IMG/VR virus record: IMGVR_UViG_3300027972_000038
Coordinates: 1 to 32,898 of that record
DNA: 32,898 bases
From: a virus
Strand: one strand, 5' to 3'
The translations under genes were made by a program, and so were the position numbers. Below the pieces are notes generated by a model, which had not been told where the DNA came from, did not search any database, and was given only the letters and a program-made list of their open reading frames with translations. Shown one piece after another: positions 19,830 through 26,978 of this stretch; the first letter of the stretch is position 1, and each line of letters begins with the position of its first letter.

Positions 19830-21224
19830 CTACCCCTCCGTCGGCATCTCGGCGAACAGCTCCTCCATCAACGTCAACTTCGACAGATCGCCATTCAGAA
19901 GCGCCTCGATCGTCTCGGGCTGCACTCCGATGTCGACCATGTTCATAAGCGCCGACGAGATCGACTGGAGCGCCTGTGCGCGTTGCTGTACGGCCAGCGT
20001 GTGCTTGACCTCGAGGTCTTCCTGCTCGAGCCGAGTCAGCGTTTCCGCCGGGTTGAACTTGACGCGGAACTTCAAGTCCGCCTTCCATCCCTTCTCGGCT
20101 TGCAGCGTGTCGGTCGCGAGGACAACCTGCACGAGGTAGCGGATCTGCTGGCGCATGTACGCCTCTTGCCGCGCGGCCACGTAGTCGTAGTACCGCTGCA
20201 GATCGCTCATCGCGCTCGCGAGTTCGCCCGTCTGAGCGCCGAGGATCCGCGCTTTGTTGATGCGCGTCGCCGCGCCAAGGACGTCCCACACCCAGTCGAC
20301 AAACCATCCGAGGTCGCCCGGGGCATTCGAGATCGACGTCATCTCCTCGTCTGTGTCGAGCACGATCACCGACAGGCTGTTGAACTTGGCCTCGATCTCG
20401 TCCATGAAGTTCAGCCTGTCCTGCATGTTGTCCATCAGGAACTTGCTCTTGACCGTGCGGGTCGCCATGTTGAACGCCGTCTGGCCAAGCGACCAGATCG
20501 TGTTCTCGATGAGCTGGGCCACCGTCCAGAAACGGGCGTAGAACGACATCCCGAGGGCCGATCCGATCCGCGGCCGCGTGAGGAAGAAGAGAGCTCTCGT
20601 GGTGTGCAGGTCGACCTCGTCGCCGGACAGACGCTTGATCCGGAACGCCGCCGGTTGGCCGTACGTGTCGGATTCCTCGTCCGTGTCGGGGATGACCTTG
20701 CTGAAGCGCCCGTCGCGCGGCAACCGCTCGATGTACCGCAACTCCTTGATCTGGTCGAGCTTGATCGGCTTCGCCGGGTCAGCCTTGCCGCTGCGCTGGG
20801 AGAATCCCAGGCCGGCCAGGCCGGCGCCGTAGACGACCTCGTCGCACAGCGTCGTCTTCAGGTACTCCTTGCAGCCGCGGTCCTCGAGGTAGAGCTGGAT
20901 CGTCTGCGAGAGCGCCTGCAGATCGGGGCTCTCTGCTTGGCCTTCGAACTCGACCGTGATCCCCGGCTTGACGAGGTCCTCGCTCATCATGTCGGCGACG
21001 TGGCCACAGATGAAGACGCCCTCGTAGAGAGCGGTGAGCGATGCGGGGTCGTGGAGCCACTCGGGAACGCCAAGCGGACGCTGCTTCGACAGAGGGTCGC
21101 GTGTGCCCATCTGCGCGCCGCTCGGCAAGTAGATCCCTGCGTCGGTACGCGCTACACGCCCCTCTCTGCCCAAGCGTCCCACCAGTTCAGCAGCGCCCGG
21201 CCGTCGTCTCGCCTCGTCCGTCAC
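19830..21224 (-). CDS. Portal protein (DUF1073-like), 464 aa
   Basis: GTG at 21224 overlaps the terminase stop (GTGA); the longer frame upstream is rejected. The core has GVFICGHVADMMSEDLVKPG, an ordered beta region with FSKVIPDTDEESDTYGQP and DLHTTRALFFLTRPRIG. The segment NKARILGAQTGELASAMSDLQRYYDYVAARQE is very like the I-L-G-x-x-x-G-L-x-x-(S/T)-D-x-x-x-Y-Y-D-Y motif of DUF1073 portals. Twelve copies would form the dodecameric ring at one vertex through which DNA is pumped by the terminase encoded just upstream. The gene order terminase-portal is normal; the missing head gene directly behind it is not. Confidence 0.9.
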   Translation of the reverse strand: MTDEARRRPGAAELVGRLGREGRVARTDAGIYLPSGAQMGTRDPLSKQRPLGVPEWLHDPASLTALYEGVFICGHVADMMSEDLVKPGITVEFEGQAESPDLQALSQTIQLYLEDRGCKEYLKTTLCDEVVYGAGLAGLGFSQRSGKADPAKPIKLDQIKELRYIERLPRDGRFSKVIPDTDEESDTYGQPAAFRIKRLSGDEVDLHTTRALFFLTRPRIGSALGMSFYARFWTVAQLIENTIWSLGQTAFNMATRTVKSKFLMDNMQDRLNFMDEIEAKFNSLSVIVLDTDEEMTSISNAPGDLGWFVDWVWDVLGAATRINKARILGAQTGELASAMSDLQRYYDYVAARQEAYMRQQIRYLVQVVLATDTLQAEKGWKADLKFRVKFNPAETLTRLEQEDLEVKHTLAVQQRAQALQSISSALMNMVDIGVQPETIEALLNGDLSKLTLMEELFAEMPTEG

Positions 21225-22723
21225 GCTCGCTCCTTCACCAGACCGCGGAAGTAGAGGTCGATCCATCCCCGCGACTGCCCCACGGTCTTCGCTGCGAAGA
21301 CGGCCAGTGCGTTCGACCAGAACGAATCGCCGTGGCCGTACGGCGTCTCCATTGCATCAAGCGCCCCGTCCACCGCGAGGATCTGCTCCAGCTGACGGTC
21401 GTAGCCGTCGTCATTCGCCTCATCCAACAGATGCAGACGGCGATTCGTGACTTCGATGTCGAAGTCCGTTGCCATCTTCCACTCGTTCCGGCTGGAGAGG
21501 ACAATCGGCACCATCTGCCGCGGGAGCTCATTCCGCTCGGCAAGCGCCTCGAGCTCCCCGCGCGTGTTGTCGTACGCGAACGAGCGGATGTGGTACTTGG
21601 CGATCAAGCGTTTCACGAGCTCGAGCTGCTGGCTGTACTCCCAGCCGTCCATCCACACCGACCGCCGCTGCCACAGGTGGCCGTCAGGCAAGCGGCGCAG
21701 GAGCGAGATGTGGGCCGGGTGCCGCTTCTTCCCAAGGTCCCACCCTCCGACGACAAAGCCGCCGAACTCCGGGTAGCGGTCCGTGCGCGGCGTGACGATG
21801 AGGCCGTTGAAGTCGGCACGCTGGAAGAACCCATCGACCGACCGCGCCGGCCGGCAGAGCATTTCCTTCGCAAACGCGATGCGGCCCATCGCCTGCAAGT
21901 CCTCCGACAGCAGCGCCGGCGTGAGCACCTCCGGCCAAAGGAGTCGCCCGTTCTCGTTGACCGCTGGATAGATCCGCCAGTCGCACTTCGGGTTCTTCCG
22001 CATGTCGAACAGCAAGTCCGTCTCGTCCTGCGGCGTCCCCGCGATGTGGATCTGCGACCGCGGCACCCCGTCGGCTGCCACCTTCGCGATCTTCCGGATC
22101 TCCTCCTTGAAGATCTTCGTGATCTTGGCAATCTGGCTGACGTCAAGCGGCTTGCGGGGATCGGAGAGCACGTCGTCGAGGAGAAGCACGTCGCCGCGGA
22201 GACCGCGCTTGAACGCCATCATGCCGACCGGGGCGCATGTAAGACGCTTGCCCGTGCGGCGGTCGACGTACTTCAGCATCGTCTTCCCCGCCCGGAGCGA
22301 CCGGATGCCGCGCATGGCGTAGAGCGGGTTCGCGTCGATGTACTGCTTCGCCTTCTCCGTGTGCTGGCCGGCAAACTTCTGGATGTAGCTGAAGTACAAG
22401 ACCTCGATGTTGCGGCCCCACACCGGGATCTGCCAGACGAGGTAGGCGACGTACGCGCGGAAGAGCGTCGACTTGAGCGAGCCGCGCGGCGCGATCGTCG
22501 TCGTCAGGTTCGAGCCCGGCAGGCGCCGACACCACTCGCGATGGTGGGCGCCCATACCGAACACGCCTTCCTCTTCGTAGTAGCCGATGCTGAAGACGTG
22601 CTCGTAGAACTCCTCGAACGTGAGGTCGTCGCACGCGGCAAGTTCCTCGAGCGCTGCGATCTCGTCGCGGCCTTCGGGGTCGGCGACTGCCGCACGGTCA
22701 ACGACGCCGAGGGCCCTGGCCAT
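21221..22723 (-). CDS. terL: Terminase large subunit, 500 aa
   Basis: ATG at 22723, with GGGAG 5 bases upstream. The ATPase domain has Walker A APRGSLKST (78-86) and Walker B LLLDDV (180-185), with IAGTPQDETDLLF as the coupling motif region. The nuclease domain begins with GGWDLGKKRHPAH (D329), followed by SFAYDNTRGELEAL and ends with GHGDSFWSNALAVFAA, whose aspartates form the metal site of RNase H-like terminase nucleases. It cuts concatemers and powers packaging through the portal. An adenine-recognition Q motif is not evident. Confidence 0.95.
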   Translation of the reverse strand: MARALGVVDRAAVADPEGRDEIAALEELAACDDLTFEEFYEHVFSIGYYEEEGVFGMGAHHREWCRRLPGSNLTTTIAPRGSLKSTLFRAYVAYLVWQIPVWGRNIEVLYFSYIQKFAGQHTEKAKQYIDANPLYAMRGIRSLRAGKTMLKYVDRRTGKRLTCAPVGMMAFKRGLRGDVLLLDDVLSDPRKPLDVSQIAKITKIFKEEIRKIAKVAADGVPRSQIHIAGTPQDETDLLFDMRKNPKCDWRIYPAVNENGRLLWPEVLTPALLSEDLQAMGRIAFAKEMLCRPARSVDGFFQRADFNGLIVTPRTDRYPEFGGFVVGGWDLGKKRHPAHISLLRRLPDGHLWQRRSVWMDGWEYSQQLELVKRLIAKYHIRSFAYDNTRGELEALAERNELPRQMVPIVLSSRNEWKMATDFDIEVTNRRLHLLDEANDDGYDRQLEQILAVDGALDAMETPYGHGDSFWSNALAVFAAKTVGQSRGWIDLYFRGLVKERA

Positions 22724-22808
22724 TACGCTCCCTGTACGGATGCCGCTTCGCCGCGGAGGCGAGAAGGAGGGAAACCGTCAAAACGGCAACCACGGCAGGC
22801 TTCCTCAC
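22698..22808 (-). CDS. Putative small signal-anchor peptide, 36 aa
   Basis: GTG at 22808 overlaps the methyltransferase stop (GTGA), and the frame overlaps the terminase start by 26 bases. It has a short basic start and hydrophobic stretch (RKPAVVAVLTVSLLLASAA) followed by a basic tail. Its sequence is largely encoded by an octamer repeat (22758-22789), so it may be translated repeat DNA and not a selected gene. The GTGA junction is the main support. Confidence 0.35.
   Translation of the reverse strand: MRKPAVVAVLTVSLLLASAAKRHPYRERNGQGPRRR
22758..22789 (-). repeat. Octamer repeat array, site 6 (opposite orientation)
   Basis: On the minus strand, units TTGCCGTT, TTGACGGT, TTCCCTCC and TTCTCGCC follow each other in exact 8-base phase, between the methyltransferase and terminase genes. 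Confidence 0.5.
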
Positions 22809-23320
22809 CACCGCTCCCCACGGACGATTGGCTGCGTGCCCCACTTCCCAACGAAGCGCACGCACGAGAAGCCCGCAGCCTCGAAGAGATGGAGCAGGTC
22901 CGCCCGCGTGTAGGCATTGACCCAGTTGTTCTCGGCACGGACCTCCGGGTGCGCCCGGGCACCCTCCGCTACGGCGTACGACGCGATGACCGTCGACACC
23001 ACGTTCGACAGCGCGTCGAGAAGCCGCGGGACGTCGTAGACGTACTCGAGCACCCCGCTGAACACGGCTACGTCGTGCGAAGGAAACTCCGGCAGCGTCT
23101 CCGCATTGAGGTCGCAGACGATCGTCCTGGGACCGCGGTCGACGATGTCGCACGGCGTGTACCGACAACCGTCCGGCAAGTGCTTGCGGAGCTCCATCGT
23201 CCACGCGCCGAACTCGAGCACCGACGTCGTTCCCTCTGGGATGAACGAGGCAATGAGCCGCGTCCGCTCGTCCCACTCCGGCACCGAATGTGCCTTCCGC
23301 CAACGTCTGGAATCCGTCAC
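22805..23320 (-). CDS. Small SAM-dependent methyltransferase, 171 aa
   Basis: GTG at 23320 with GAGGTGAGAGG just upstream. Class I Rossmann methyltransferase: motif I is SVLEFGAWTMELRKHL (a weakened version of the E-x-G-x-G-x-G loop), then CDIVDRG (acidic end of strand 2), DVAVFSGVLEYVYDV (motif IV-like, resembling MetW/UbiE proteins), and a C-terminal LFEAAGFSCVRFVGKW. The degenerate glycine loop leaves some doubt about activity. The substrate cannot be read; in this setting a sugar or small-molecule acceptor is plausible, since it immediately precedes the structural and glycan genes. Confidence 0.75.
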   Translation of the reverse strand: MTDSRRWRKAHSVPEWDERTRLIASFIPEGTTSVLEFGAWTMELRKHLPDGCRYTPCDIVDRGPRTIVCDLNAETLPEFPSHDVAVFSGVLEYVYDVPRLLDALSNVVSTVIASYAVAEGARAHPEVRAENNWVNAYTRADLLHLFEAAGFSCVRFVGKWGTQPIVRGERW

Positions 23321-23404: not shown

Positions 23405-23488
23405 CTACCACAGCCCGCCTCCCGTGAAGACCCAGACGAGGTACACGACAAGCGCTGCAGCGAAGAGAAGACTGAGGAGTGCGTTCAT
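23405..23488 (-). CDS. 27-residue membrane peptide
   Basis: ATG at 23488 overlaps the cytosine methyltransferase stop as ATGA. The peptide is one hydrophobic helix (ALLSLLFAAALVVYLVWVF) ending in Thr-Gly-Gly-Gly-Leu-Trp. The ATGA coupling, an intact hydrophobic helix and the absence of another gene in this interval support it as a real microprotein, perhaps a membrane-complex subunit or lysis-related peptide. Confidence 0.5.
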   Translation of the reverse strand: MNALLSLLFAAALVVYLVWVFTGGGLW

Positions 23489-24468
23489 GCTGGTCTGCAG
23501 GCCTCCTCGTAGGCCATCACGAACTCCGCCGCGACTGCCGGCACGATCGCATTGCCGTAGCCCCGCAGGAGGCCCACGCGGCCGGGTACCCCATGAGCCA
23601 ACGGCTCAAGCCCGGGTTCAATGCGCCGCGCTTTCCCGTCGGCGCAAGGGATGAGGACGCTATTGCTCCAAGCGTTAGTCCTGCTCCGTTCCCGTTGTAT
23701 CCCCTCTCGCGCAGGCGCTGGATCCTCTCCATGTGCTTCTCGAGATCGCAACCGACGTTCATCGCCTGGGCATCCGGCGTCGACCAGCCCGCCAACGCTG
23801 CCTGATCCTCCAGCCGACTCCCCTTCCCCGTGTGCTCCGGGCACGGAATGCCGCCGTTCGTCGTCACGCGAGGTGTTGCCCATCCGAAGACTGCTTCCTG
23901 CATCCGCGCACCGCGTTTCCCGTCGTACTGGCGGGATCCCGGTGATCTCGAATCCGACGCTGCAACGGTCGGCCACCCAGTAGAGCCGCTGCCGGATGTG
24001 CGGTGCGCCGACGCACGCAGCGCACAGATCGGCGGCCCCACCGCCGTATCCCAATGCTTCCAAGTCAGGACGTACTCCGGCATGGAACCACTCTCGCCCA
24101 AGCTTGCTCGCAACCTGCTCTCCAAAGACGACTGGAGGGCGGCACTCCGCAATGAGGCGTCGGAACTCGGGCCACAGGTGCCGCTTGTCGGACTCGCCCC
24201 GGCCTTTCCCGGCACAAGAGAACGGCTGGCAGGGGCAACTCCCAGTCCACACGGATCGGTCATCGGACCATCCGGCAAGTCGAAGAGCGAGAGACCAGCC
24301 GCCGATCCCCGCGAAGAAGTGGCACTGCGTGTACCCGGCAAGGTCGCTAGGTTGGACGTCTGCGATGCTCCTCTCGTCGACATCGCCATCAGCGATCAGC
24401 CCTTCCTTGATGAGTTCGCGGAGCCACGCACATACCTTCGGATCATTGTCGTTGTAGTAGGCAGGCAT
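23485..24468 (-). CDS. C5-cytosine DNA methyltransferase, phage type, 327 aa
   Basis: I chose the ATG at 24468. The N-terminus (VCAWLRELIKEGLIADG, DERSIADV) is characteristic of phage Dcm proteins. Motif I is FAGIGGWSLAL (52-62), catalytic PCQPFS has C80, motif VI is altered to GEQVASKLG (usual ENV replaced by EQV), motif VIII is QRLYWVA, and the C-terminal motif X is RLLRGYGNAIVPAVAAEFV-like. It transfers methyl to C5 of cytosine, probably protecting phage DNA from host restriction. No cognate nuclease is adjacent, so it is a solitary enzyme. A second long frame is embedded in the same DNA (see 23517-24389). Confidence 0.9.
   Translation of the reverse strand: MPAYYNDNDPKVCAWLRELIKEGLIADGDVDERSIADVQPSDLAGYTQCHFFAGIGGWSLALRLAGWSDDRSVWTGSCPCQPFSCAGKGRGESDKRHLWPEFRRLIAECRPPVVFGEQVASKLGREWFHAGVRPDLEALGYGGGAADLCAACVGAPHIRQRLYWVADRCSVGFEITGIPPVRRETRCADAGSSLRMGNTSRDDERRHSVPGAHGEGESAGGSGSVGGLVDAGCPGDERRLRSREAHGEDPAPAREGIQRERSRTNAWSNSVLIPCADGKARRIEPGLEPLAHGVPGRVGLLRGYGNAIVPAVAAEFVMAYEEACRPA
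23517..24389 (-). CDS. Second coding frame inside the methyltransferase gene (290 aa)
   Basis: This frame runs in the same direction, shifted by one base, and covers most of the methyltransferase. It is not random-looking: SGSMPEYVLTWKHWD (residues 100-114), PPICALRASAHRTSGSG, three motifs GWPTV (138), GWATP (169) and GWSTP (201), and LNPGLSRWLMGYPAAW (257-272). I recall similar GW-x-TP proteins annotated beside or inside phage Dcm genes, but could not check this. The repeated motif corresponds to WVADR, MGNTS and LVDAG-like stretches in the methylase frame. Start ATG 24389; no clear ribosome site. Its protein may be real, or it may be a conserved by-product of the methylase composition. Confidence 0.5.
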   Translation of the reverse strand: MAMSTRGASQTSNLATLPGTRSATSSRGSAAGLSLFDLPDGPMTDPCGLGVAPASRSLVPGKAGASPTSGTCGPSSDASLRSAALQSSLESRLRASLGESGSMPEYVLTWKHWDTAVGPPICALRASAHRTSGSGSTGWPTVAASDSRSPGSRQYDGKRGARMQEAVFGWATPRVTTNGGIPCPEHTGKGSRLEDQAALAGWSTPDAQAMNVGCDLEKHMERIQRLRERGYNGNGAGLTLGAIASSSLAPTGKRGALNPGLSRWLMGYPAAWASCGATAMRSCRQSRRSS

Positions 24469-24478
24469 CGCCGTCCCC

Positions 24479-24868
24479 CTACCTCTTTCCCACGAAGTAC
24501 GCCCACTGGATCTCCTTGAGGCCCTCGCCGCCCGGGTGCGGGTCGTGGACCATCTTCCCTGCCCGCATGACGACCGCATGCTTGAGGCTCCGAGGTCCCG
24601 GGCCGGCGGCGATGAACTCGCTCGGGCAGCCTTCGTCAAGCACGGTCTCGGCCCACGCGTCGTTGTCCAGCCGCTCCAGTTCGTGCGCTGGGACTGCCAC
24701 AAGGCGGAGGCCGCGCTTCGCCGCCCAAGCATTCGCCGAATCGAACCATCGCTCTCCCTTCTCCGCGAAGTTCGGAACGGCGCCGACTCGGAGCTCAAGA
24801 ATCGACGCCAGGCAGGCAGAGAAGCAGTTACCGTCCTTCCCGAACCGCGTCTGCTGTACCGGGATCAC
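24479..24868 (-). CDS. C39-like papain-fold cysteine peptidase, 129 aa
   Basis: GTG at 24868 overlaps the SNF2 stop (GTGA). The motif GKDGNCFSACLASILE has the likely nucleophile C15 in the G-x-C-x-x-A-C pattern. SLKHAVVMRAGKMVHDPHPGGEGL supplies H97 and D109, and together they make a Cys-His-Asp triad. The domain is the size of minimal papain-like or C39 peptidases, which cleave peptide or isopeptide bonds. Similar small proteins are encoded by phages with no known target. Its place between an SNF2 motor and a DNA methyltransferase is unusual. A transglutaminase-like or pseudoenzyme role cannot be excluded. Confidence 0.7.
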   Translation of the reverse strand: MIPVQQTRFGKDGNCFSACLASILELRVGAVPNFAEKGERWFDSANAWAAKRGLRLVAVPAHELERLDNDAWAETVLDEGCPSEFIAAGPGPRSLKHAVVMRAGKMVHDPHPGGEGLKEIQWAYFVGKR

Positions 24869-26622
24869 TCCGTCACCTCCACACCACTCAACTCACCGCG
24901 ACGCGCCAGGTAGTCGGCCGCCAGCCGCTTGATCCCTCCGTCCTTCGTCGTGACCGCCTCCACGAGCGGAGCGTTCGGATCGCGGATCCCCTCGATCTGT
25001 GTCCGCTTGACGCCAAGCACGTCGGCAATGACCGGATCCGACCCTGAGTCCGAGAGGAGGTAGTAGACGGCCACAGGATCCTTCTGCCCGTCGCGGTGCA
25101 CCCGGCCGATGCACTGCTCATGCACGCCCGGCGACCAGTCAAGCTCGCCGAACACCACTGTCCGGCTCTTCTCCTGTAATCCATCGATGCCTTGGCCGGC
25201 GCGCAGACTCATCACGAGCACCTTCGCGGCACCGCCCACGAACGCATCGCGCGCGAGGTCCTTCTGCGTCACCGACTCCGATCCGGTAAACATGACCGGG
25301 GAGAGATCCTTGAGGAGGTCCATCCAGATCGAGTAGACCTCGCGGTGCCACCCGTAGAGGACGACGTGCTCCCCGGACTCGACGAGCAGACGGACGAACG
25401 CCGCGACATAGGGCGCCTTGGCAATCCCGGTCGCCTGCCGCAGCCGCCAGTCGAGCTCACGTGCCGCCTGGCCGCGCTCGGTGAACTCCGACGTCGATCG
25501 CAGAATCACCCGTGCCAGCTCGGCAACGTCCACCGAGACTCGGTTGAGCGCCTCCGTGTCAGCGTCGACATGCTGCGGCATGACCATCACTTCGGGAAGC
25601 TCGCGGGAGACGTCGGCCCGCGTTCTGCGGATCATGAGCCCCGTCTCGCGGACGTACGATCCGAAGGCGACCGGATCCCGAACGGGAGCCTGTGACGTTC
25701 CGTACCTCTCCATGCACCACTCGCGCAGGAACTCGTCGAGCGTTCCAAGCGCGCCCGGGCGGAGGGCTTCCATCACGTGGAAGAACTCCCCGCCGTAGTT
25801 GTAAACCGGCGTCGCCGAGAGGCCGAGGCGATACTGCGCCGCGCGGGCAATGCAGTTCGCTGCTGTGCCTTTCGCGCTCTCTTTGCCCCGGCGAAGCTCC
25901 TGAACCTCATCGAAGATCACCGTGCGCATGGTTCCGGCAAGCGTGCTCGCCCAGCCCGCAAGCTTGTGGTAGTTGGTCACGAGAACGTCGGGAAACCGAT
26001 GCTCGAGGATCTCATCCCTGCCATGCTTCTTCTTGCCGCCTGCGATGTCGTACGGCGTCCCTTTCTTGATCACGTGCACGGTGAGGTCCGGAGCAAAGCG
26101 ATTCAGCTCACGTGCCCACTGGGTCGTGAGGTGCGTCAGAGTGACGACAAGCGCCGGCCGCGTCGACGGCTCGGTGAGCATGGCAATCGCCGAGATCGTC
26201 TTCCCAAGTCCGACGTCGTCCGCGACAAGCAAGCCTCTCGTGCGCAGTGCGGCCTCCGCAGCGATCCGCTGATACTCACGCGGCGGAAGAGCGAGGTCGA
26301 ACGCCCGCGGCGCAATGTCCCCGGAGAGGAGACGCCCCACGTCCACAACGCGCTGCTCGTACGCCGCGGAGCGGAGCTCGAGCTCGGCGCGATCGCTCTC
26401 CTGTATGCGAAGCGGGTACCGCTGCAGAAGCCACAGGATGTCCCGCGAGGTCTCGTCCGTCGCGAGAACCTCGATGTGCCCGGGCGTCCCGTTCTTGGCG
26501 ACGCGGCCGAACAGGCGCTTGACGCGCAATGCTACGTGGGGCTCGGTTTCGATCACCCAGCGAGATGCCGTCTCACCGAGACGAGTCACCTGGGAGAACT
26601 CGACCGTCCCATAGGTGCGCAT
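24865..26622 (-). CDS. SNF2-family DNA helicase/translocase, 585 aa
   Basis: ATG at 26622 (TGATG with the nuclease stop). Residues 1-110 precede the motor and hold no recognisable domain. Motor motifs: DVGLGKT (136-142), VVTLTHLTTQWARE, FDEVQ (237-241; DEVQ in place of DEAH), LGLSATPVYN, LVMSLRAGQGIDGLQEKSRTVVFGELDWSP, and EQCIGRVHRDGQ (motif VI). This is a divergent SNF2/RapA-like protein distinct from the HARP-type one at 1431. It is coupled to a PD-(D/E)XK nuclease immediately upstream, so the pair may act as one translocase-nuclease complex in replication, repair or degradation of rival DNA. Confidence 0.9.
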   Translation of the reverse strand: MRTYGTVEFSQVTRLGETASRWVIETEPHVALRVKRLFGRVAKNGTPGHIEVLATDETSRDILWLLQRYPLRIQESDRAELELRSAAYEQRVVDVGRLLSGDIAPRAFDLALPPREYQRIAAEAALRTRGLLVADDVGLGKTISAIAMLTEPSTRPALVVTLTHLTTQWARELNRFAPDLTVHVIKKGTPYDIAGGKKKHGRDEILEHRFPDVLVTNYHKLAGWASTLAGTMRTVIFDEVQELRRGKESAKGTAANCIARAAQYRLGLSATPVYNYGGEFFHVMEALRPGALGTLDEFLREWCMERYGTSQAPVRDPVAFGSYVRETGLMIRRTRADVSRELPEVMVMPQHVDADTEALNRVSVDVAELARVILRSTSEFTERGQAARELDWRLRQATGIAKAPYVAAFVRLLVESGEHVVLYGWHREVYSIWMDLLKDLSPVMFTGSESVTQKDLARDAFVGGAAKVLVMSLRAGQGIDGLQEKSRTVVFGELDWSPGVHEQCIGRVHRDGQKDPVAVYYLLSDSGSDPVIADVLGVKRTQIEGIRDPNAPLVEAVTTKDGGIKRLAADYLARRGELSGVEVTE

Positions 26623-26978
26623 CAGAGAGCGCCCTCCGACAGCCACAGAATAACGACCTTCTTGCCGCGGAAGAGCGGCGGGACCGCAAGATGCCCCGAG
26701 CGACTGGTCACGATGAGAAGCTCATCGATGCGCTCGTCGTCGAGGTACCCATGGATCTGACGCACGAGCTGCGCCATGCTGCCGCCCACCTTCACCTCGA
26801 TTCCGACACCGCACTCGAGGAGGAAATCGATCCGTCCGCCGGATACCGGGATCTCACGAGCGAACAGCTCCTTGGCTTCGGTCAGCACGGAAGCGATCCC
26901 CGTTTGCAGCTGCAGCTCCGACGAGAAGCGGAAGCGGTGACGAACGAGCAAGTCCCGCACGGCCATGGCGTCAGTCAT
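26622..26978 (-). CDS. PD-(D/E)XK nuclease, 118 aa
   Basis: ATG at 26978 overlaps the upstream stop (ATGACTGA); the longer frame is rejected. The core reads GGRIDFLLECGVGIEVKV: D, then E-x-K about 9 residues later, the D...ExK metal site of the restriction-endonuclease-like fold. A basic strand and helix follow (AQLVRQIHGYLDDERIDELLIVTSR), typical for small nucleases of this superfamily. The N-terminal half (MTDAMAVRDLLVRHRFRFSSELQLQTGIA) is helical. It probably cuts DNA together with the SNF2 motor encoded next. Whether it acts on structured DNA or on specific sites is unknown. Confidence 0.8.
   Translation of the reverse strand: MTDAMAVRDLLVRHRFRFSSELQLQTGIASVLTEAKELFAREIPVSGGRIDFLLECGVGIEVKVGGSMAQLVRQIHGYLDDERIDELLIVTSRSGHLAVPPLFRGKKVVILWLSEGAL

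Follow-up and report, generated by a model that had tools for sequence, protein, structure and literature searches.

Two-chain C5-cytosine methyltransferases have been described in which the conserved motifs are divided between polypeptides. M.EcoHK31I (YGGCCR) has motifs I–VIII and X in its large subunit, and motif IX is present solely in a smaller second polypeptide (PMC3404938, citing Lee, Kam and Shaw 1995). The small subunit of M.EcoHK31I is 176 aa long and is read from the +1 frame within the large-subunit gene. M.AquI (CYCGRG) is likewise divided between two chains, and its second chain carries motif IX together with the later part of the variable region (PMC3404938). In known C5 enzymes, motif IX packs the target-recognition region (TRD) against the catalytic domain. 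Another known case of concealed coding is the ShiLan domain, a hidden HNH in a mycobacteriophage methylase (PMC11855218). We found no paper on the present class of overlapping or dual-coding methyltransferase genes in the literature searched.

The viral DNA analysed here (the window; all 32,898 nucleotides of the stretch from IMG/VR record IMGVR_UViG_3300027972_000038) contains a Dcm gene within which the original prediction proposed a second open frame of 290 codons, on the same strand and shifted by one base. This held: the nested frame occupies 24389..23517 on the minus strand and is shifted +1 relative to the Dcm frame, which probably starts with the ATG at 24468 and ends at 23485. We refer to the Dcm-frame product as alpha and to the nested product as beta. 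The likely interpretation, inferred from sequence and without a complex having been shown, is that the locus specifies a two-subunit C5-cytosine methyltransferase from overlapping genes, with a catalytic alpha and a nested beta. The features of the locus are as follows.

23485..24468, minus strand: alpha, the Dcm frame (C5-cytosine methyltransferase, 327 aa), with motifs I–VIII and X and no in-frame motif IX
23517..24389, minus strand: beta, the nested frame (290 aa from ATG 24389), +1 relative to the Dcm frame, with W.TP modules and motif IX
24355..24378, minus strand: beta initiation site inside alpha (codons for DERSIADV), with GAGAGGAG present and the usual ATG reading ACG in the window
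24048..24146, minus strand: dual-coded stretch, in which motifs VI to VIII of alpha face a helix and a beta-hairpin predicted for beta (SAALQSSLESRLRASLG...EYVLTWKHWD)
23624..23978, minus strand: putative beta target-recognition array, with modules starting at GWPTV (23978), GWATP (23885) and GWSTP (23789); here alpha is a neutral, stop-free linker
23574..23621, minus strand: motif IX, LNPGLSRWLMGYPAAW, in the beta frame just before motif X
23539..23568, minus strand: motif X, LRGYGNAIVP, in the alpha frame, from sequence and conserved columns in alignments A2/A4

In the family alignment, Dcm columns 1–36 (the upstream part) precede the second gene. The neighbouring genes include those for a Methyltransf_23 protein (22808–23320), an SNF2-type helicase (24868–26646) and a phage portal protein (19833–21266), all on the minus strand, and a scan of ten neighbouring proteins recognised no restriction enzyme.

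Alpha is a C5-cytosine methyltransferase by its sequence motifs, and includes GSCPCQPFS (the PCQ of motif IV), GEQVAS (an ENV-type motif VI, here GEQV), RQRLYWVA (a QRxR-type motif VIII) and a motif X with GN. All of the motifs quoted in the original prediction were found, and PCQPFS, QRLYWVA and RGYGNAIVP sit in the Dcm frame as it stated. Alpha matches PF00145 at 8e-14 (above the cut-off) and phrog_363 at 2e-75, and Foldseek matches its AlphaFold model to M.HhaI (the M.HhaI fold; 4e-8). In the model the catalytic domain and the helices of motif X are predicted with confidence, and there is no folded TRD; pLDDT is >90 over most of residues 1–170, <50 over 186–248 and 252–261, and ~90 for the last 17 residues. 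The motif IX pattern was not found in the methyltransferase frame of the nested-type genes, and if motif IX and a folded TRD are expected in the same chain, alpha fails (it has no motif IX, residues 186–261 mostly have pLDDT <50, and dN/dS is 1.2 over the TRD).

Beta matches phrog_1008 at 3e-22 over profile positions 11–284 of 329, which is most of the family length, and all 24 members of alignment A1 match the same family. It has no Pfam match, and sequence searches of Pfam, NCBIfam and PDB returned nothing useful. Both phrog_363 and phrog_1008 carry the PHROG label DNA methyltransferase; they are separate catalogue entries, and the labels are silent on the overlap and on any division of labour. 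Similar proteins in phage annotations, which the original prediction had mentioned, do exist, as seen from the phrog_1008 match and from the few phage records that annotate both frames or the second frame alone; most records annotate only the Dcm frame. The AlphaFold model of beta is poor (mean pLDDT 61.6), with a helix and hairpin over residues 78–127 (pLDDT is mostly 70–88 for 81–130) and short helices elsewhere, and Foldseek with this low-confidence model gave no match.

One alternative is that the Dcm frame is the sole gene and the second frame a by-product, owing its openness and conservation to high GC content and a conserved protein. The window on its own gives this some support. When the Dcm gene was shuffled synonymously 20,000 times, 1.1% of the shuffles gave a stop-free run at least as long as the observed 292 codons (mean 148, p ~0.011); the gene is GC-rich (GC3 = 0.68), and homology in one frame pulls similarity into the other. 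The open length is thus merely modestly unusual and a single GC-rich sequence is weak proof, and comparison with relatives was therefore needed. Both frames are present, on the same strand and in the +1 relation, in 150 of 150 related loci (viral contigs and phage records, the window included, from scans with either protein); second-frame similarity is by itself weak evidence, because Dcm homology partly brings it along.

Stop codons were counted in 132 distinct loci. Beyond Dcm codon 45 there are 111 stops in the +1 frame versus 587 expected from synonymous shuffles, and 100 of the 132 loci have none at all (5.7 expected), whereas the +2 control has 1731 stops with 1608 expected. A sub-sample of loci fetched by the Dcm protein only was used to remove selection bias, and over motifs VI–VIII and the TRD these contain no +1 stops, either in 17 closer loci (29.4 expected) or in 22 distant marine loci (106.5 expected), with +2 stops close to expectation. 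In the same Dcm-fetched loci there is no depletion in columns 1–36, upstream of the beta start. Ordinary C5 methyltransferase genes show no comparable +1 depletion (11 versus 9.8, 14 versus 16.5 and 3 versus 4.6 expected), and the nested-type genes in the same bacterial genomes have 0 stops in +1. The shuffle and Fisher tests were not corrected for phylogeny. In the distant marine phages L030–L061 the +1 frame has many stops within the first 50–70 Dcm codons and is open beyond them, a pattern which implies that beta starts later in these phages than in the window group.

Frame-specific selection was estimated from 32 independent pairs, both as dN/dS (an OLGenie-type estimate) and as rates at the three codon positions. 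For the +1 frame dN/dS is 0.82 in columns 1–36, before the second gene, 0.72 in 37–110, 0.27 in 111–172 (motifs VI–VIII), 0.10 (interval 0.08–0.15) over the TRD, and 0.21 over 268–312 (motif IX). Along successive regions the Dcm frame gives 0.06, 0.14, 0.15 (111–172), 1.20 (TRD, 0.83–1.87), 0.47 and 0.17, and the control +2 frame is ~1 or higher in all regions. Rates at codon positions 1, 2 and 3 are normal for Dcm in columns 1–40 (0.074, 0.049 and 0.300); over the TRD they are 0.205, 0.073 and 0.042, so that the highest rate is at Dcm position 1 and the lowest at position 3, which is the pattern of a +1 frame. The Dcm frame nonetheless has only 1 stop across the TRD (580 expected in 162 loci), and is stop-free in 161 of the 162. 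It is thus amino-acid neutral over the TRD but kept open, which makes it probable that translation of alpha continues across this stretch as far as motif X.

Together these observations all but exclude the by-product explanation. The absence of +1 stops with +2 stops at expectation extends to AT-richer marine loci, the fast and slow sites over the TRD are the opposite of those in a Dcm-coding gene, the dN/dS values of 1.2 (Dcm) and 0.10 (+1) in this region point the same way, and ordinary C5 genes have no such pattern. An open frame driven by GC content is likewise rejected by the +2 control, the codon-position rates and the ordinary C5 control genes. Both frames are conserved and selected, and the second frame is very probably a real second gene; double coding is well supported, albeit from sequence alone. 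The original prediction suggested selection on both frames, proposed frame-specific dN/dS as a check and named second-frame stops in close relatives as a refutation. The selection claim is supported by the stop depletion, by dN/dS (0.10 for the second frame over the TRD) and by conserved initiation signals, and the stops that were looked for are depleted in +1, unlike in +2. One refinement is needed, as the division of the load between the frames varies along the gene: in the TRD, constraint acts on the second frame alone, with the Dcm frame neutral yet kept open.

Many relatives carry a start signal for beta within alpha. The Dcm residues D-E-R-S-I-x-D-V are often encoded as GAA AGG AGT ATC NNN GAT GTC, which provides AGGAG, 8 bases and then an ATG in the +1 frame. 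At this site 79 of 174 relatives have both a Shine-Dalgarno sequence and the ATG, 2 have the Shine-Dalgarno without the ATG, 30 have the ATG alone and 63 (~36%) have neither; at the remaining Asp positions of these genes, used as a control, the Shine-Dalgarno is followed by ATG in 32 of 136. The rare Arg codon AGG is used at the initiation-site Arg in 31% of cases versus 8% elsewhere. These tests too lack a phylogeny correction. In the window the Shine-Dalgarno is kept and the family's usual beta ATG is replaced by ACG, and its beta start is therefore uncertain, with ATG 24389 and ATG 24383 as possible candidates. Translation of beta in the window phage is an inference, and there is no protein-level evidence for it (peptides such as SGSMPEYVLTWK).

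A second alternative is a single polypeptide whose translation involves ribosomal frameshifting: the ribosome would enter +1 for the TRD and motif IX and return for motif X. In its favor, the alpha-beta-alpha order is that of a normal single-chain C5 enzyme, and gp24 of Mycobacterium phage prophi91-4 has the TRD, IX and X in one frame. However, two opposite shifts would be required, and a shifted product would need neither the joint constraint on both frames over columns 111–172 and 268–312 nor a neutral Dcm frame that, in 161 of 162 loci, carries no stop within the TRD. The presence of a separate beta start signal in many relatives also argues against it, and we consider frameshifting very unlikely.

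On the preferred two-gene reading, the motifs are divided between the frames, and the segment missing from alpha has a counterpart in beta. LNPGLSRWLMGYPAAW matches motif IX in position and signature, an assignment resting on sequence alone. Its columns are invariant or nearly so in 139 relatives, and it aligns with RLAARFSEWMQGWPLGW of prophi91-4 gp24, which lies immediately before the gp24 motif X. In two ordinary C5 enzymes from the same genomes, motif IX is inside the methyltransferase frame (e.g. LTPRECARLQGFPEEY).

Upstream of motif IX is the array of W.TP units. The original prediction of three GW-x-TP motifs held in part, as GWPTV (beta residues 138–142), GWATP (169–173) and GWSTP (201–205) are present and just the last two are strict GW.TP; its spacing of about 30 residues held, at a measured 31 and 32. 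Its suggestion of a duplicated DNA module is not supported, and the idea that the units arose by tandem duplication of DNA was rejected, since there are no direct repeats of ≥14 bases in 23560–24000. Across 188 loci there are 585 units, mostly two to five per locus, in 30 clusters of three or more. One type can occur in different slots beside different neighbours, i.e. it has been shuffled between phages, and modules 2 and 3 of the window have related modules elsewhere among the phages. The units are therefore protein modules that recur in other slots of other phages and not a local DNA repeat. Pairs of the same type in different slots have rates of 0.283, 0.214 and 0.501 at the three positions of the +1 frame, highest at the third, with the caveat that the clusters had been built on that frame. 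A role for the units in DNA recognition is inferred from their position and variability only.

A third alternative is that beta is translated but has a function unrelated to target recognition, such as regulating or inhibiting alpha, or anti-restriction. That beta has no Pfam match and its model no structural match is consistent with this. However, beta has a motif IX signature that alpha lacks, alpha has no foldable TRD, and the variable modular part sits where a TRD belongs, and this alternative too seems very unlikely.

Relatives are widespread, with 218 on genome contigs listed from Proteobacteria, Verrucomicrobia, Planctomycetes and others. Beta is present in 7 of 274 sampled genomes of one class, and a search of 5,426 E. 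coli genomes with one phage gene as query gave two partial matches. The nested form also occurs in cyanophages and an Acinetobacter phage. A separate non-overlapping family of beta-like proteins had been expected and was rejected: the best matches checked, from Microcystis, Synechococcus and Acinetobacter phages, also lie in +1 over a Dcm frame.

Several relatives depart from the window arrangement. In prophi91-4, gp24 is a single ORF with the alpha profile at 67–236, the beta profile including motif IX at 321–490, and an alpha motif X at 492–510. Its own +1 frame also bears beta-like sequence, and gp24 is therefore probably a fusion of two overlapping genes. In Streptomyces phage Samy and in mycobacteriophages the two halves are overlapping genes, and such actinophages have motif X in the second gene. 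In Mycobacterium phage GigiOuiOui (L151, 1632–2547) the catalytic part of alpha is divided over two frames, which suggests either that alpha is broken or that the record contains a frameshift. Komagataeibacter phage phiKX1 (L067, ~2420–2930) has an HNH-like element between motifs IX and X of the nested methyltransferase; it reads in the beta (+1) frame with the Dcm frame open for 543 codons, and resembles the hidden HNH of ShiLan (PMC11855218). Finally, L253 (G006) has a 494-codon C5 methyltransferase frame with a weaker +1 beta match (1e-18) and a motif X of GNGVV, and may be a further branch of the nested type.

We propose that alpha would provide the AdoMet-binding and catalytic domain (motifs I–VIII) and the motif X helices, its middle being an unconstrained linker kept stop-free so that motif X is reached. 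Beta would start within alpha, be read in +1, and contribute the helix-hairpin, the variable W.TP array and motif IX. The two would assemble on DNA, with target choice resting on beta and with alpha flipping the cytosine and methylating it, and phages could alter their specificity by exchanging W.TP modules. The two-subunit reading is supported because AlphaFold gives alpha no folded TRD and because gp24 runs alpha-beta-alpha. The complex remains an inference, as does the role of the enzyme, whether restriction protection or other modification. A bolder reading is that this is a large and widespread phage and prophage C5 class with its specificity in a hidden +1 array of W.TP cassettes and a catalytic frame that there serves as a neutral stop-free linker; we see as much reason to doubt this as to accept it. 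Its further part, that each module adds or alters a DNA target, is no more than a possibility.

If the two-subunit interpretation is correct, Dcm genes of the nested class are half annotated and their specificity determinant has been read in the wrong frame; on the bolder reading, every member of the class would be misannotated and have its targets mispredicted if only the Dcm frame were used. Claims of overlapping genes are frequent for bacteria and phages and demonstrations are rare, and here there is a strong frame-specific signal across many unrelated phages with a clear functional logic. The family also offers an easy test of how DNA evolves with one frame constrained and the other merely open, and the W.TP modules may be a naturally occurring set of target-recognition parts that can be swapped.

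Of the known kinds, M.EcoHK31I is the nearest, by analogy of working arrangement. As in that enzyme, motifs I–VIII and X are in one frame and motif IX is in a second (as reading frames, the chains not having been shown), and the second chain would be nested in an alternative frame, the +1 overlap being present here in 150 of 150 loci. The differences are that M.EcoHK31I has a predicted TRD in the large subunit, which counts against placing the TRD in the window beta, whereas the TRD constraint in the window family is in the +1 frame only and the alpha TRD region evolves neutrally; that beta is larger, at about 280–290 aa; and that the system is phage-borne, with no restriction enzyme recognised among the scanned neighbours. 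M.AquI differs in having motif X also in the small subunit, whereas the window family has a nested beta and keeps motif X in alpha, although the actinophage relatives GigiOuiOui, ByChance and Samy seem to be of the AquI type, with motif X in the second gene. The ShiLan case is similar in that a second protein is out of frame within a phage methylase gene, but it is a homing endonuclease insertion, whereas beta appears to be a conserved part of the methyltransferase. New in the present family are the putative TRD array in beta, the shuffling of its modules, the start signals and the wide distribution among phages.
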